This document shows, piece by piece, positions 3,834-20,892 of a DNA stretch of 64,000 nt. The notes under the pieces are model-generated. The model was not told the origin of the DNA and searched no databases. It saw only the letters and a list, made by a program, of their open reading frames with translations. The stretch is from Brachyhypopomus gauderio (lineage: Eukaryota; Chordata; Actinopteri; Gymnotiformes; Hypopomidae), in the NCBI RefSeq assembly GCF_052324685.1, contig NC_135213.1, forward strand, positions 41,784,200 to 41,848,199, given 5' to 3'. The stretch's first letter is position 1. Each line of letters opens with the position of its first letter. Position numbers and translations under genes: made by a program.

Positions 3834-4594
3834 CACGTGCTGTGTCTCGCAGTGATGCTGAGTCAGGTGACGTGCACTTGTCCCCTTGATTTTAAAGTAC
3901 TCTGAATCATTGTGCCTGCAAGGAGGTGGTAAAAAGAACACATTGTGGTGATATTGACTCACTGTTGCCACTCCTCTTTTACCATCGTCAGTTTGTGGAC
4001 TTATGATAGGAAAAACTCAAAGAATCTTGGTGACCTACAGGTTTGATTCATCTGCCTTCCTAGTTAAGTCATGCGAACCATTTGCTGCAAAATTGGCTTT
4101 AGCTACATTGGCAATTCATTTTGTCTTCGTATTCCAGTGCATTGTACCGAACTGCAATATCCATCTTAGATCAACTGAGATTTTGCATTTCTCTCTTTCC
4201 CACATGCAAGTTCTGAATTTCTTGGCACACATTACTGCTTTGCATCTACTAAAAGCACTCCAGAGAAAGCTTCACTTCATACCTTCATGAGGTAGGTGTC
4301 GTTTGTACTTGTATTTTGGTGGTATTTTTGTTTTTTTTTGTTTGTGTGCGTTGTTTGTCTACTCTTGGAACATCCTGTGATTGGTTAGGGTAGGATTAGA
4401 GTTTAATTACGTTGGCCTCAGATTCTGGTTAATTCCAGGCTTCTTGTGCTAACCTTGTTGTTTGTTAGCTGTTGTTGGCAGTAATTAGTTGCTGCAGGTG
4501 CACTTGCCGCCATGCTCCAAGGAGTGAATTGGGGGCGGATACATTTTTTCTCCAGCTTTGTTAGTTCTTCCTCAGCCTCGCTTCTTCTTTCCTA

Positions 4595-11348: not shown

Positions 11349-11420
11349 CTCCCCGTCGGGGAATCGAACCCCGGTCTTCCGCGTGACAGGCGGAGATACT
11401 ATCCACTATACTAACGAGGA
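11349..11420 (-). tRNA. tRNA-Asp(GTC), cassette 6
   Basis: Standard copy. Confidence 0.97.
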
Positions 11421-13527: not shown

Positions 13528-13540
13528 GCCTCGTTGGCGC
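13528..13540 (+). pseudogene. 5' fragment of interrupted tRNA-Met
   Basis: The first 13 nt of tRNA-Met (GCCTCGTTGGCGC) are followed directly by transposon sequence. The gene is split at the A box; the remainder resumes at 20826. Position 9 is G here, while every other tRNA-Met in the window has A. Confidence 0.93.
13534..13540 (+). repeat. Target site duplication, left copy
   Basis: TTGGCGC, identical to 20826-20832. It corresponds to tRNA-Met nucleotides 7-13. Confidence 0.9.
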
Positions 13541-13546
13541 TCATTG

Positions 13547-13561
13547 TCGACTGTCAGTCGA
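13547..13561. repeat. Near-terminal perfect inverted repeat
   Basis: TCGACTG, one T, then CAGTCGA: a 7-bp stem with a 1-nt centre, 6 bp inside the left end of the element. It may be part of the transposase recognition end. Confidence 0.5.
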
Positions 13562-13578
13562 GGTAATTCTAGGTAACT

Positions 13579-13713
13579 CTTGGTAGCGATATCCAATCAT
13601 CTTTCAGCCTGCTACCAGAATGATATCAAGAATTGGCCAATCGTTGGCCTTATCGCTATCAAGAATAGCTCGACAGACTGAATGAACCAATCACAAGACG
13701 TATCGCTTCCAAG
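13579..13713. repeat. Subterminal inverted motif copies, left end
   Basis: CTTGGTAGCGATA at 13579-13591 has two near-exact inverted partners at 13651-13663 and 13701-13713, each with one mismatch. Spaced inverted copies near an end are typical of transposase binding sites, which is inference here. Confidence 0.5.
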
Positions 13714-13747
13714 AATGGGCGATGACGACACGGTGTCAAATGCCAAT
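13593..13747 (+). promoter_or_regulatory. Four CCAAT boxes upstream of the transposase gene
   Basis: CCAAT occurs at 13593, 13637, 13687 and 13743, each followed by C. The copy at 13687 sits in AACCAATCAC, a good match to an NF-Y site. All lie within 200 bp upstream of the TATA motif. Confidence 0.5.
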
Positions 13748-13782
13748 CGCGAGCGTCTCACAGCGCTCCTCAGAATTTAAGT

Positions 13783-13788
13783 TATATA
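13783..13788 (+). promoter_or_regulatory. TATA box of transposase gene
   Basis: TATATA is followed about 33 bp later by TTCAGTTC (13813-13820), an initiator-like sequence. The likely transcription start is near 13816. Confidence 0.55.
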
Positions 13789-13815
13789 GGCGGGTTTTAG
13801 GGGAGAGTTATATTC

Positions 13816-13901
13816 AGTTCAACATTAACTTTCGTAGCTGGTCTGCGCTCGTTTCTTATACATTCTCGGACACGGACCTTTCGACGTCTACAAAGAAAAA
13901 T
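13816..13901 (+). other. Probable 5' UTR exon of transposase gene
   Basis: It runs from the initiator-like motif to a strong splice donor AAAAAT|GTAAGT at 13902. The matching acceptor would be TTCACAG ending at 15034, three bases before the start codon at 15038. The intron would be 13902-15034. Confidence 0.5.
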
Positions 13902-14333
13902 GTAAGTATAAATATAAACGTATTAAGTGTGCTAGCTTAGTAGGTTTTGTTAACGGCGCATCGCGCTATGCAAGATTACTATCCACCGTAATTCAGCTGC
14001 ATTTATATACGTAGTATTGACTTAACTCTATGATATCTATTTTTATGGAACGAAGAAAAATGTATGTGTAAATATAAACGTATTAATTGTGTAGATAAAG
14101 TGTGCTAGCTTAGTGGCTTTGCAAGATTACTATCCACCGTAATTCAGCTGCATTTATATACGTAGTATTGACTTAACTCTATGATATCTATTTTTATGGA
14201 ACGAAGAAAAATGTATGTGTAAATATAAACGTATTAATTGTGTAGATAAAGTGTGCTAGCTTAGTGGCTTTGCAAGATTACTATCCACCGTAATTCAGCT
14301 GCATTTATATACGTAGTATTGACTTAACTCTGA
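13889..14333. repeat. 151-bp tandem repeat, about three copies
   Basis: GAACGAAGAAAAATG recurs at 14048 and 14199 (period 151); a diverged first copy begins near 13890 and overlaps the splice donor. The repeat lies in the proposed 5' UTR intron. No coding potential seen. Confidence 0.85.
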
Positions 14334-14410
14334 TATCTGAACGCCATATCAACCACTTAGTCATAGCATCGGGGCTTAACCACCTTGCAACCACTTTTTG
14401 ATGACAAAAC

Positions 14411-14872
14411 GGCATTTACATTCACCTGGGAAAAGTACAACTGCTTTTAAAACCAGAAGTCCCAGTAATTTCAACTATAGAGTTTAGAAAGACTTAGTCC
14501 AGATGTGCAAATGTGGCCATTGCCTGGCATTTACATTCACCTGGGAAAAGTCCTGAAAGGGTCAAAAGACCCTTAATCCAGACTGACTACCCTGATGGCT
14601 CCAAATCAATATCTCTTCATTTGCAAATGTGGCCATTGCCTGGCATTTACATTCACCTGGGAAAAGCCCTGAAAGGGTCAAAAGACCCTTAATCCAGACT
14701 GACTACCCTGATGGCTCCAAATCAATATCTCTTCATTTGCAAATGTGGCCATTGCCTGGCATTTACATTCACCTGGGAAAAGCCCTGAAAGGGTCAAAAG
14801 ACCCTTAATCCAGACTGACTACCCTGATGGCTCCAAATCAATATCTCTTCATTTGCAAATGTAGCCATGACC
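14411..14872. repeat. 116-bp tandem repeat, three copies plus a partial
   Basis: GGCATTTACATTCACCTGGG starts at 14411 (diverged partial), 14526, 14642 and 14758, with exact 116-bp spacing among the last three. It contains a short palindrome-like GGGTCAAAAGACCC. Non-coding, inside the proposed 5' UTR intron. Confidence 0.88.
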
Positions 14873-15034
14873 CTTCTCTGGGACTTCTAGTGTTAAATGT
14901 TCATGGACATGTTTTATTTATTCATTTATTCTCTGAATTATTTGTTTTTACACTTTTACATGTTCTAATAATACTTCATAATAAATAATAATTATTATAA
15001 TAATTATAACTATTTAATAATACTCTATTCACAG
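14873..15034. other. AT-rich intron tail
   Basis: Very AT-rich sequence with TAATAATTATTAT-type runs, leading into the acceptor before the start codon. No other feature seen. Confidence 0.5.
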
Positions 15035-15037
15035 ACC

Positions 15038-18000
15038 ATGGAACCCATATTCAGGAAGAAAGCTGATGGCAGTCCCAATCTGTGTGACTCCAAGGCTGCC
15101 CTATGTGTGAAGGAAGCCAATAAAAAGAAGCCGTGGGCCAGAGCCATTTCTCCTGAAAAGGTGAAGGATTCTGCAAGACGGGCAGTGTTGCGCTCAGGTG
15201 GAGATCCAGGCAACGCTGTCCACGTGCTGGGTCAGCATGAGCTTCAGTTTGGAGTTTTCAGGGGTCAGACCTTCAAGTGGGTGGCTGAAAACGCCCTGGG
15301 CTACGCCGGATACCTTGTTGCTGACATGAAGAAGGAGTCTTCACAGGGGAAAGATTCCATTAACCACGCGGAAAACAAGAAGGCATTCCGTTCATATGTT
15401 GAACGTTTCCCAGAGGGCCAATATGCCATCCGGATCAAGACAGAGAAGATGTCTTGTAGCAGCACTCAGTCTGCTTCCCTGCCCTGCACCAGCACTGAGC
15501 CCAACATCAGTCCGCTGTCTACTGACCCCATGCAAGCCTGCACCAGCACTGAGTCCTCAAGCAGTCAGCTGTCTGAGCCTGTCCAGTCCTCTGACTCCTG
15601 CCAGCCTTCAGTGGCTTCAGTCTCTTCCCTGCGCACTTTGTTGGTTGGGAGAGGCAGTAGCACAAAGAGCCTAGAAAAGACAGTGAAGAGGCTCATTTCA
15701 CCCTCCAAGTTCAAACCTTGTGTGTATGAATAATGAACTCCTAGAATTTACCATGGACATAAAAGCAACCTATTTATTTGATCATGTGTTTTATCACCCA
15801 TTCCAGCTGTGTCGCTCCCTTCATTTGAACCCACTCACATGGACGACAGTGAACTGGTGACGGCTGCTGAGCAGGTGGAATCAGAACTGACAGGTAAGAT
15901 TTATTTATTTTTTATCAATACTGTATAATGTGGCTCATTACTCATTACAAATGTGATTCATGATTATTTTTCCCCCTTTCTTTTGCTTTCATCTGTTCAG
16001 TGCAGAGCAGAATTTGCCTCCCTGCTGGATGGAAACCTGCTCTTCCTATTGTAGATCAGCAGTGGATTTCCAAGGCACTTTTCAAGTGGTCACGAAATGG
16101 ACAACCAGAGTTGGACCATTCGAAAGTGGACAAGATGTGGTGGCACCCCCCTCAGCCTTCACTAACTCCCAGTGGTGTGCCAGCAATGGAGAGGTACTTT
16201 GGACATGCCTTGTTTCTCTGGATGCCGAGGAAGCTTTGGCATGTGCGGCTGTTCTGCCCCCATCCTGACTGTGGCAAGGAGGAGCTCACGTCTGCTGGAG
16301 TGCATCAGAGGATCAGGCAGGTGGTTGGTATCAGCAGCTCCTACTTCATGGCAGCAGAATACCTTGCCTGTAAGAGCTGCAAGAGGAAGGTGATCAGCTG
16401 GAGCCACAACATTGTCTGTCAGCTGGACATTGGCCATCGTGTCCAGTTTCCCTGCTTCCTCACCTCCAAGCTGGCATGTGACATGCAAGTAGTGCGGCAG
16501 ATGCATCAGAGGGGTTTGGGGAACAGCAGCAGTCAGCTCCAGAAGCAGATGGAGGAGCAGCACTCGGAGGCCTGGCTGGAGAAACAGGTCCAGTACCTCA
16601 CAGACTGCAAAGGACTCGTGAGAGCTGCATCGTCTGGACTCATCACACCTGTTGTTCTAGGGGATCTGCCACCATTACTCCAAGTCCCAAAGCATCGCTG
16701 GCTGATGCAGGTGTATGCTCAGGATGTCCTGAACAGACTAGAGGAGGTAAAGGCCTCCATCACCTCGCAGTTTGGCCGTGTGCTAAAGATGGACTCCACA
16801 AAAAAAATTGTGAGGAAGCTGGCAGGACAGAGCCGCGCAACAGCAGCTTGGGCCACCAACGTTGGCAACGAGCACGGACAAGTCATCATGTCTGTGCTCA
16901 CGGCCAGTGAAGGCTATGGCTTGGGCAAGATGATTGATGGCATCATGAAGCGCTACCGAGACGCTGGTGTGTCAACTCCAGAGGTGCTGTATGTTGACCG
17001 GGACTGCTGCGGGGCCACTCATCTCAGAAACATGTTTAAGGGATGGGAGGACATGGAGATCCGACTGGACATCTGGCACTACATGAGGAGGATAGCGGTT
17101 GGCTGCACCACTGACTCCCATGTGCTTTATGCAGGCTTCATGAACAGTCTGAGCCACTGTATTTTCATGTGGGATGAGTCTGACCTCCAGGCGCTTAAGG
17201 AGGCCAAGCGCTCAGAGCTGGAGGCAAAGTTGATGCACCCCACGGATGCAGGTGTGATGAGGAACATCACCAGAGCAGAGATGGCACTGCACTGCAAGAG
17301 GACCACTCGCAGCTGTGAGGACATCAAGGCACTTGTGACAGAGTTGATCCGGTCCTACGATGGTGAGAAGGGCTGCAACACCCTTGGCGTGCCCCTCATC
17401 AACTCTGCGAGGATGGCCGAGATCTGGAGCAGCCAAACAAAGCACATTGCCTGCATCCAGGACCCTCCGGGTGTACAACTGTACATGCAGATGGGAACCA
17501 TCCTGAAGGGGGGGCACAGTCTGCCAACGTACAGATGTGCCAGAGGTTCTACTTCCCTGGAATCCTTTCACCTGCATATGAACAGGTTCATTCCTGGTAA
17601 GCTTCCACCTATACGTTAAAGCCTTTAATGTAGTTACTTATCTAAAACCAGTCTAACAATTTCAATGTGTAATATGTTTCAGGGACCTTGGCAAGTGATA
17701 CTTTTTTCCAGGCTTACCTGGTGGATGGCCTTGCCAGGTGGAATGAAGACCGGAGACTGGCAGCTGCAGGAAAAGACCAGCCCCATTCCTACAGTGGCCT
17801 GCTTAAATATGCTGCCAACCAGCTGTCTCAGGAGGTACTGGGGAGAACACTGGTGGACTACACAGGGCCACGAAAGTATACAGGTACGCCTAAATTTACA
17901 TGATCCGAGAAATAAAAAGTAAAAAGCAGTTACTGTTGGCCTGGACATTTATGCTTCTTGTTTTTATTTTTTCTTTCAGGAGAGCTCATAGGTGTGGAGT

Positions 18001-19311
18001 ACTTATATGAGCAGACCGGCAGTGCCCTGGAAGACTATAAATTAGTCATCTTGGCTCTTGAGACTGAGGATGTGACCGTGGCAGAAGATGAAGGTTTTGA
18101 AGAGGCACAGGATTTTGAGGACTTAACTGTCCCAGCATTTGAAACAGAACCACCTGCTGTGCCATCTGCTTCTGATGCCTCCAGTGGTGTTGCATTTGCT
18201 CCTCCGGTCTCCATCTCTGCTCCTCCGGTCTCCATCTCTGCTCCTCCGGTCTCCATCTCTGCTCCTCCGGTCTCCATCTCTGCTCCTCCGGTCTCCATCT
18301 CTGCTCCTCCGGTCTCCATCTCTGCTCCTCCGGTCTCCATCTCTGCTCCTCCGGTCTCCATCTCTGCTCCCCTGGTCTCTCCACCTGCTCCTTCAAACAG
18401 CAACCCGACTTCTGCTCTTGTGGCTTCCCCTAGCCAAGATGTAAGATTTCTTCTGTTCATTCCATTAATTGGTGACTCTGATAGGCTTGTATACATGCTG
18501 CTTCCTGCTTTATCTAATCACTGTGATTCTTCATTTAGGACTCAGTGGGACCTGATAACATTGAGGGCTATAGAGCTGTGCAGAACTTGGCAGACTACCT
18601 AGTCACCCTGAAGGACCACAGCTTTGCTTTGTCGCTTGAGGAATCAAGCCACATCATCACCCTTTGGCAGGCTCTTAGTGACTATGATAAGCAGCGCATG
18701 GTATATGCTCCACGTCATCAAGCCACTTTGAACAAGGGGCGCTTCAGGGTCACTAAGAAAATTGTAGCTCCAGGCGTGGAGTCCACAAGGCGGTAAGCTG
18801 TTATGCGTAAATGCACTGGTTTACAGTGTTTATGTGTAAATGCACTGGTTTACAGTGTTTATGTGTAAATGCACTGGTTTGCAGTGTTTATGTTGGCAAA
18901 TTAATAATCATCTGTGTATATTGTGTTTTTTATTCTTTTCCAGGTGTTTTGTTGGAGCAAACAGCCCTGCACAGTGGCCAGACTGCAACAGAGTTGTGGA
19001 GGCAATCTTTGTCCGGCTGTGTATTACATTTCCAAACCCGAAAAACATCGGTGGGGTCAGGTTTGGAAGGTGGACCCTCATCTGTCGTGCTTACAAGCAC
19101 ATCAGGGAGTGCGTCTTGAGTAATGCACATGTGATGCAGGGGACCACCATCCAGCTACCAGAAGTGAATGCCACCACACTGTCAGAGTGGTGAGTCAATC
19201 AATTTTCAGATGTTAAAAAAATGTATTTAACTATATTTAATTAATATCGGGATTTATTTGTTGACAGCCATGTTCTTCTTAAAATGTCTTTTTAATTTAA
19301 TAACTGAACTC

Positions 19312-19362
<51 letters not shown>

Positions 19363-20176
19363 GTACTGCAGGCGGACTCGTTCACAGGAGTCTGATGTTC
19401 TTCATCAGGGCATCATGCCTCCAGAAGCACCAGTATCAGGTCCTACAACACAGCGGTCCACACCCCAGAAGGACAGTCTTGCCTCTCACCCCTCCACAGA
19501 CAGCCCCCATGTCTTTGTCCTGCCCCCTGACACTGCGGGGACGGCAAAGTTGAAGAGACGTTTGACCTTCACATCAGGTCCAGCTTCATCTGCTCCACCT
19601 CAGCAGAACCTGCCTGCACCTCCCCAGTGTGTCTCCTACAGCATGCCTACTGATCCTGGATTTTGTTTGGTGTATGTAGTGCCAGGACCTGGTCCAGACA
19701 GCCATAGCCAAGTGGTGGCACAAGGAGTGACACACATTATGCCTGCTACCGCCAGCCACATTATGCCTGCTACCGCCAGCCACATTATGCCTGCTACCGC
19801 CAGCCATAGCCAAGGAGTGGCACACATTATGCCTGCTACCGCCAGCCATAGCCAAGGAGTGGCACACATTATGCCTGCTACCGCTGGATCCAGTCAGGGT
19901 GCGTTGGCAGTGACCCAGATGTCAGATGTGCCATACACGACACAGCAATACCGGAAGCGGAAATTGAAAAACGAGATGGCTGGTATAAAGACCCGCAAAT
20001 ATGTTCGCCACACCAGCGCTATAATTTGCAGGAGATGCCAAAAAGAGAGGAAGCCCCCCACACATCAACAGTACTTTGGCAACTGGTATTGTGAAGAAAC
20101 TGACACCATGTCACTGGAGGATTGGAAGGCTATGCTGGTAGCACGGGGCTATGGAAAGAAGAAAGCCCCAAAATAA
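15038..20176 (+). CDS. Dada-like transposase, eight coding exons, 1446 aa
   Basis: Exons by GT-AG junctions with continuous phase: 15038-15719, 15807-15893, 16001-17596, 17683-17883, 17980-18440, 18539-18792, 18944-19189 and 19363-20176. They total 4341 nt with a single stop at the end. The start ACCATGG is a good Kozak context. The first donor, T|GTGTGTATG, is the weakest junction but the only nearby one with the right phase. Residues 342/347 and 380/383 (CPHPDC and CKSC) form a probable zinc module. The catalytic core is proposed as D521 (KMDSTKK), D589 (YVDRDCC) and E777 (SLESFHLH), with D613 and H616 (LDIWHYM) between. An acidic and repeat-rich linker follows (exon 5). The C-terminus has C1398, C1401 and C1419, a knuckle-like motif. 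It should cut and paste the element into tRNA-Met genes in the nucleus; the family call rests on context and recalled similarity, not a search. Confidence 0.82.
18198..18365 (+). repeat. Coding minisatellite, 8 x 21 bp
   Basis: Eight nearly perfect 21-bp units encode APPVSIS in exon 5, ending in a diverged APLVSPP. The unit is a multiple of three, so the frame is kept whatever the copy number. It forms a low-complexity linker in the transposase. Confidence 0.93.
18803..18889 (+). repeat. 29-bp tandem repeat in intron, 3 copies
   Basis: Units start at 18803, 18832 and 18861 in the intron between exons 6 and 7, each holding AAATGCACTGGTTT. No function seen. Confidence 0.9.
19314..19360 (+). 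repeat. (TG)n microsatellite next to exon 8 acceptor
   Basis: About 23 TG dinucleotides run directly into TAG|G of the exon 8 acceptor, replacing the usual pyrimidine-rich tract. Confidence 0.95.
19733..19886 (+). repeat. Coding repeats of HIMPATAS
   Basis: Five copies of the HIMPATA motif in exon 8, first as 24-bp units and then as 42-bp units with HSQGVA inserted. All keep the frame. A second expanded low-complexity linker of the transposase. Confidence 0.9.
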
Positions 20177-20350
20177 AAATTATGTGTCTGCATAATTGTA
20201 TATATTATAATTGTATATATGTGCCATGATTGTAAATATATTAGTAGTAGCTGTAGTGTTAGTATCTTAGTCAAGTCAAAACATTGTGTATTTGTATATA
20301 TTAAACATTGTAATTTTTTAAATTATTTGCATAGGTATCTGTAAACGTTG

Positions 20351-20450
20351 TATATATATTATATATATATTATTTATATTATAATATAATAATATATATA
20401 TATTATATATTATATATATATATTATATATATATATATATATTATATATT
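20351..20450. repeat. (TA)n-rich tract
   Basis: Imperfect TA repeat in the 3' region of the transposon, after the transposase stop codon. Confidence 0.9.
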
Positions 20451-20482
20451 GTGGATAATGTTCTCTAATGTGTTGTGTTTTT

Positions 20483-20488
20483 AATAAA
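20483..20488 (+). terminator. Candidate polyadenylation signal
   Basis: AATAAA about 306 bp after the stop codon. Further AATAAA copies lie near 20516 and 20549, each within a short repeat ATCGTTCATAATAAATGTGTT. Another overlaps the stop codon itself, so the true end of the transcript is open. Confidence 0.45.
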
Positions 20489-20597
20489 AGTGCCTGGTTG
20501 GTTTTATCGTTCATAATAAATGTGTTGTGTTTGGATTTATCGTTCATAATAAATGTGTTCTGTTTTAAACATGTGTCTGGTTGGTTTTATCGTTTAT

Positions 20598-20740
20598 AAT
20601 ATCACGCATTTCCTTTATATTTAACCAATTTATAAATATGTAATATCACCCGCTTCCTTTGTATTTAAGTATTTATGAACGTGTCCGATAATATCGCGCA
20701 TTTCCTTTGCATTTAACTATTTCCAAACTTGTCCGATGCG
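20598..20740. repeat. Subterminal repeats, right end of transposon
   Basis: AATATC followed by a CGC-TTCCTTT-TATTTAA pattern occurs at 20598, 20642 and 20690, spaced 44-48 bp and diverged. They lie 85-230 bp inside the right end. Possible transposase binding sites, by inference. Confidence 0.5.
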
Positions 20741-20825
20741 GGATTCGATACGATGCTCGACTGGGCGAATCTTAGTAATTGTTTACTATTAATAGCGCCG
20801 AAACCTCGACACACACGCGCAGTCC

Positions 20826-20832
20826 TTGGCGC
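20826..20832 (+). repeat. Target site duplication, right copy
   Basis: TTGGCGC, identical to 13534-13540. Confidence 0.9.
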
Positions 20833-20892
20833 AGTAGGTAGCGCGTCAGTCTCATAATCTGAAGGTCGTGAGTTCGACCCTCACACGGGGCA
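20826..20892 (+). pseudogene. 3' part of interrupted tRNA-Met, A and B boxes kept
   Basis: Nucleotides 7-73 of tRNA-Met(CAT). The six missing acceptor bases are replaced by CAGTCC from the transposon end, which cannot pair with ACGGGGC. Both internal Pol III boxes and the T5 terminator remain, so it could still be transcribed but not fold into a normal tRNA. Confidence 0.9.

Follow-up and report, generated by a model that had tools for sequence, protein, structure and literature searches.

The 64,000-nucleotide stretch of the Brachyhypopomus gauderio genome analysed here (contig NC_135213.1, positions 41,784,200 to 41,848,199; hereafter, the window) consists of tandemly repeated units of approximately 1660 or 1976 bp that carry tRNA-Met, tRNA-Ser and tRNA-Asp genes; in this array, a single tRNA-Met gene is interrupted after nucleotide 13 by a 7286-bp element (13541..20826) lying in the same orientation as the tRNA. 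This element is very probably (at about 0.93) a complete DNA transposon of the Dada superfamily that has moved recently. The left flank, GCCTCGTTGGCGC, corresponds to tRNA-Met nucleotides 1 to 13 and has its last base at 13540 (5′ fragment, 13528..13540; assigned by comparison with the window's 30 other tRNA-Met genes), and the right flank restarts with TTGGCGCAGTAGG, continuing as tRNA-Met nucleotides 8 to 73 (3′ fragment, 20827..20892; features are on the plus strand unless stated otherwise). When the element and one flanking hexamer are removed, the joined flanks yield a gap-free 1660-bp unit with 99.5% identity to the unit at 11349. The restored empty site upholds both the element and its position at tRNA-Met nucleotide 13, as proposed in the initial annotation. 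No second match to the element was found when the window was compared with itself.

The exact boundaries depend on the length of the target duplication, which the initial annotation gave as 7 bp, with a 7285-bp element. The word TTGGCGC is indeed present on both sides, these being its only 2 occurrences in the window (13534 and 20826), but a 6-bp duplication is more likely (TGGCGC, 13535..13540 and 20827..20832), making the element 7286 bp, because the sub-terminal inverted repeats are symmetric only under the 6-bp reading. With 6 bp, GTCGAGGT lies at positions 17 to 24 from both ends (13557..13564, and 20803..20810 when read on the minus strand), whereas with 7 bp the best equal-distance match is 2 bases and the symmetry is lost, for which reason the longer duplication was rejected. 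The chance of such a match between the ends was estimated at 5 in 10,000 (P = 0.0005; random pairing within the element, 20,000 trials). The 5′ repeat recurs in all 6 genomic copies with both ends read, and the 3′ repeat was likewise placed by the six-copy comparison; past this 8-bp sub-terminal word, no terminal inverted repeats were found at the element ends.

The putative transposase gene consists of 8 coding exons separated by 7 GT-AG introns of matching phases, which join into exactly 1446 residues followed by a stop codon. The previously described DDE transposase of 1446 residues is therefore confirmed in length and openness, but its frame in the DNA is interrupted by introns. The exons, placed by the joined reading frame, span 15038..15719, 15807..15893, 16001..17596, 17683..17883, 17980..18440, 18539..18792, 18944..19189 and 19363..20176, and their G+C content (0.51–0.54) is distinct from that of the introns (0.28–0.36). 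Exon 3 encodes an N-terminal CCCC zinc finger (C342/C347/C380/C383), most of the Pfam domain DUF6729 (residues 267–500, E = 1.8e-88), the DDE triad (D521, D589 and E777) and, following the second D, the DxxH motif DIWH at residues 613–616; exon 8 carries a C-terminal CCHC finger (C1398/C1401/H1410/C1419) and the stop codon. Upstream, a TATA-like box (13783..13790) would, from its position, belong to the presumed transposase promoter, and a presumed 5′ untranslated region intron (13902..15034, GTAAGT ... CACAG) would end directly before ACCATGG; downstream, AATAAA at 20483..20488 is a candidate polyadenylation signal. In Pfam, the 1446-residue protein matched nothing besides DUF6729, and NCBIfam returned 0 matches. 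Searches with 6 exon pieces gave sub-threshold Pfam hits (PF24339, E = 0.11; PF02800, E = 0.082), and the single match in the PDB sequence search had an E value of 1.7; all were judged to be due to chance. Coding repeats whose periods (21, 24 and 42 bp) are each divisible by three were detected at 18197–18379 and 19721–19884, the 21-bp repeat falling within exon 5; genomic copies vary by 21 and 42 bp in these repeats, with the frame kept.

The Dada assignment of the initial annotation is supported by the published Dada residues with near-identical spacing and by a relative inserted in a U6 gene. PMC3706591 gives, for Dada-U6_DR, a D-D spacing of 68, a D-E spacing of 176, CCCC spacing of 5-35-3 and CCHC spacing of 3-10-9; in the window element, the D-D spacing is also 68, and the finger spacings are 5-33-3 and 3-9-9, respectively. 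Within the same genome, a relative on C148 (L064 925–8370, transposase opposite to U6) splits a U6 gene, the element lying between two copies of GCGAAA, one closing the first part of U6 and the other opening the rest of the gene, with TCTTCTCTG near the end of the element. GCGAAA duplications in U6 and this end word are published marks of Dada-U6 (PMC3706591), and the relative is 51% identical to the window element over the DDE region. Its target, duplication and end word mark it as a Dada-U6, which would anchor the Dada name of the window element independently of Repbase. The window element combines a DDE triad and DxxH, both zinc fingers, a 6–7 bp duplication, a multicopy small-RNA-gene target and repeats that are sub-terminal only, as described for Dada-U6 and Dada-U1 (PMC3706591).

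Exon 3 was used as the query against the 796.5-Mb assembly containing the window and yielded 7 full-length matches at 99–100% identity plus one copy split by an insert, i.e., 8 near-identical copies. Both ends were read in 6 of these (the window copy, C3:41771820, C3:41730318, C3:41704874, C3:41654498 and C212:76289), and all 6 are inserted after nucleotide 13 of tRNA-Met, as the initial annotation predicted for other copies. The first 2 reside in short units and the remaining 4 in long units. At C1:20507, the flank 5′ of the copy reads GCCCGGCTAGCTC, with the hexamer TAGCTC, and presumably represents nucleotides 1 to 13 of tRNA-Lys; this copy ends at element position 4480, lacks exons 6–8, and no 3′ end was detected for it as far as C1:43300. 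The C9 copy showed no readable ends in the stretches examined. When exons were joined at the window-copy boundaries, the frame was open in at least 3 copies (1446, 1439 and 1467 codons); those at C3:41730318 and C3:41704874 share an internal stop at codon 1061, and in C3:41654498 exon 3 is interrupted, such that a joined reading is not meaningful. In aligned coding sequence, 8 substitutions over 4320 bases separate the window copy from C3:41771820, and 18 over 4341 separate it from the C212 copy. A near-identical insert of approximately 2.5 kb occupies the same place in C3:41730318, C3:41704874 and C3:41654498 (L040 224–2500, L041 188–2600 and L043 945–3485); these 3 copies therefore derive from one ancestral copy, leaving at most 4 insertion events, a count that exchange within the array might reduce further. 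In L043, the same 357 bp form both ends of the insert, as would be expected of a small element of the long terminal repeat type.

More diverged relatives are also present, exon 3 matching other Dada-like families at 31–57% identity among the matches listed. A diverged relative (L048, L039), 73% identical over the 5′ 126 bp, has at its 5′ end GGGCCAGTGGAGC, which corresponds to tRNA-Arg nucleotides 1 to 13 with one change; its site reads TGGAGC, the intact tRNA-Arg form being TGGCGC. Given this relative and the tRNA-Lys-like flank, itself presumptive, the proposed tRNA-Met target holds for the 6 copies but is not strictly tRNA-Met. Damaged relatives on C62 (L037) are arranged head-to-tail and adjoin an intact tRNA-Arg gene. 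The C14 relative has a 5′ flank without a tRNA fragment, no RNA gene was found around the C16 relative in a 9.9-kb stretch that is about half N, and the C67 relative interrupts a unit of a tRNA-Ala array outside the tRNA genes, at an unreadable target. Beyond this genome, no relatives were found in viral_contigs, and 7 pattern matches in genome_contigs yielded none that was confirmed. The flank counts below cover the 6 copies with both ends read and leave aside the C1 copy (5′ end only), the unread C9 copy and the diverged C62, C14 and C13 relatives.

The letters flanking the insertions disagree with those of the empty targets. The window contains 30 further tRNA-Met genes, of which 22 read TTAGCGC and 8 read TTAGCAC, the TGGCGC of the duplication occurring in neither form. 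Across the whole genome, TTAGCGC followed by tRNA-Met nucleotides 14 to 40 has 357 exact matches, one of which lies on the right side of the insertion at C3:41771820, whereas GTTGGCGC with the same continuation has 0, no uninserted gene of this kind being found. Both patterns were exact, and variants with further changes are thus missed; places were given for approximately 100 of the 357 matches, and the GTTGGCGC pattern starts one base earlier than the other, which keeps out insertion right flanks. By contrast, the insertion hexamer is TGGCGC on the left in 6/6 copies and on the right in 5/6, with 5 copies carrying it on both sides; the sole exception, C3:41771820, has TGGCGC on the left and TAGCGC on the right. 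These flanks resemble, by analogy, the replacement of target letters that is often seen, at times on one side only, in Dada-tA and Dada-tY, for which no mechanism has been given (PMC8869645). Our preferred reading, held at close to even odds, is that the element brings its own flanking hexamer, so that TAGCGC becomes TGGCGC at one flank or at both.

In the mechanism we propose, RNA polymerase II would produce a spliced transposase mRNA, and the transposase would bind the sub-terminal repeats of its own element and excise it. Insertion would follow through cuts staggered by 6 bp in the A box of the tRNA gene (nucleotides 8 to 13), placed by reading the downstream DNA sequence, and the loss of one among several hundred tRNA copies would be tolerated through gene number. 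That the array provides safe sites, as proposed in the initial annotation, is likewise an inference. Less certainly, the TGGCGC hexamer would derive from the earlier site of the element and replace TAGCGC of the target: the cut would fall 6 bases outside the element, the donor bases would move as single-strand tails, and these would anneal, with mismatches, to the gap of 6 bases in the new target before being sealed in. If so, the hexamer belongs to the mobile unit and records which tRNA gene hosted the element before (tRNA-Arg and tRNA-Asn are published targets with TGGCGC), and a carried hexamer could let the family drift between tRNA targets.

The main rival to such carry-over is a single hit on a tRNA-Met gene that by chance had an A-to-G change (TGGCGC), followed by multiplication of the occupied unit through unequal crossing-over and gene conversion. 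The common descent of the 3 insert-bearing copies fits this account, as do the right flanks of the 4 long-unit copies, which differ by 0–3 substitutions in 1040 bp, and the ability of copies in one array to convert each other. However, no uninserted GTTGGCGC gene was recovered among the exact matches, against the 357 for TTAGCGC; the window copy sits in a short unit, its right flank being 5–6 substitutions away from those of other occupied units, about as much as many empty units differ among themselves (0–10); and one of the 4 private variants of the occupied 1660-bp unit falls inside the 6-bp repeat, an expectation of 4 × 6/1660 = 1.4%. We therefore regard multiplication within the array as rather unlikely, if a serious contender. 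Less probable still is that the transposase favours TGGCGC and chose rare variant tRNA-Met genes, each hit destroying the variant. Dada-tN and Dada-tR have been published as targeting TGGCGC (PMC8869645), and the diverged relative entered TGGAGC of tRNA-Arg, whose intact form is TGGCGC, but no such tRNA-Met variant was present among the exact matches searched, and TGGCGC is not required, given the TAGCTC found 5′ of one near-identical copy. A chance landing in a tRNA gene by an element of another DDE superfamily (hAT, MuDR, P or Kolobok), which share the C/DxxH motif (PMC8869645) and could account for a lone insertion, is highly improbable considering 6 insertions at one position, DUF6729 as the only Pfam match and the 51% identity to the U6-inserted relative.

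Several points nevertheless weigh against the Dada assignment and the replacement of flanks. The spacing from the second D to E is 188 here, compared with 176 in Dada-U6_DR (PMC3706591), and in the papers covered, DUF6729 has no tie to Dada. Kinship with Dada would run through one relative in this genome and through residue numbers from the literature. As for the hexamer, the one-sided TAGCGC flank lies near an N stretch and may be an assembly effect, and replacement would rest on at most 4 events, with 3 copies sharing an insert, which weakens the case without removing it.

The 5′ end also carries a word in common with the target. GTCAGTC at 13553..13559 (element positions 13–19) is the same word, at the same distance from the duplication, as nucleotides 26 to 32 of tRNA-Met, and it overlaps the inverted repeat only in part. 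Equal-distance runs of at least 7 occur at 0.19% of element positions (P ~0.002; several comparisons were made), compared with runs of 2–3 against the tRNA-Ser and tRNA-Asp genes. The correspondence is suggestive only, because the run at the 3′ end of the element is 3, the comparisons were several, and the tRNA-Arg relative matches its own target no better than tRNA-Met. Covariation between element and target across the tRNA-Met and tRNA-Arg families was unsupported. On the other side of the insertion, the 3′ tRNA fragment scores 46 bits with the Rfam tRNA model, versus 66.8 bits for an intact neighbouring gene. It retains a complete A box, because the duplication restores nucleotides 8 to 13, together with the B box and the T run, and could still be transcribed from the 3′ end of the element. 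The 2 unit lengths of the array (window 1–64000) differ by a block of approximately 315 bp, which begins approximately 33 bp upstream of tRNA-Met.

Dada elements pick fixed sites in multicopy RNA genes and are thus a model for targeted integration. Here, an apparently young family with open frames occurs in one genome together with several hundred empty targets of near-identical sequence, and its flanks disagree with those targets, making it possible to test the old puzzle of Dada flank replacement, namely, whether target bases are copied or own bases are brought. The novelty of the insertion itself is small, because Dada insertion at tRNA nucleotides 8 to 13, tRNA-Met included, has been published (PMC8869645), although neither TAGCGC nor the name Dada-tM appears in that text. 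In the literature covered, outside which lie most subscription papers and Repbase Reports, Dada targeting of tRNA-Met or other tRNA genes is treated only in PMC8869645, PMC3706591 and general works.

Compared with the published families, the window element can be set beside Dada-tN and Dada-tR, with which it shares insertion at tRNA nucleotides 8 to 13, 6-bp repeats, the TGGCGC hexamer and the entry into tRNA-Met genes (PMC8869645). Unlike in those families, the tRNA-Met genes here read TAGCGC and the flanks TGGCGC. Dada-tK and Dada-tY use the same position and the target TAGCTC, found here at the 5′ flank of one near-identical copy, and Dada-tY replaces its flanks (PMC8869645), but among the 7 copies whose 5′ end was read, 6 lie in tRNA-Met, and the presumed replacement brings in TGGCGC rather than TGGCGG. 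Flank replacement, at times one-sided, is also seen in Dada-tA, which, however, enters tRNA-Ala at the anticodon region and in reverse orientation, whereas the window element occupies the A-box region in the same orientation (PMC3706591; PMC8869645). Finally, Dada-U6 resembles the window element in domain order and key residues, the U6-inserted element of the same genome being 51% identical over the DDE region, and differs from it in target gene, sub-terminal repeat and hexamer (PMC3706591).

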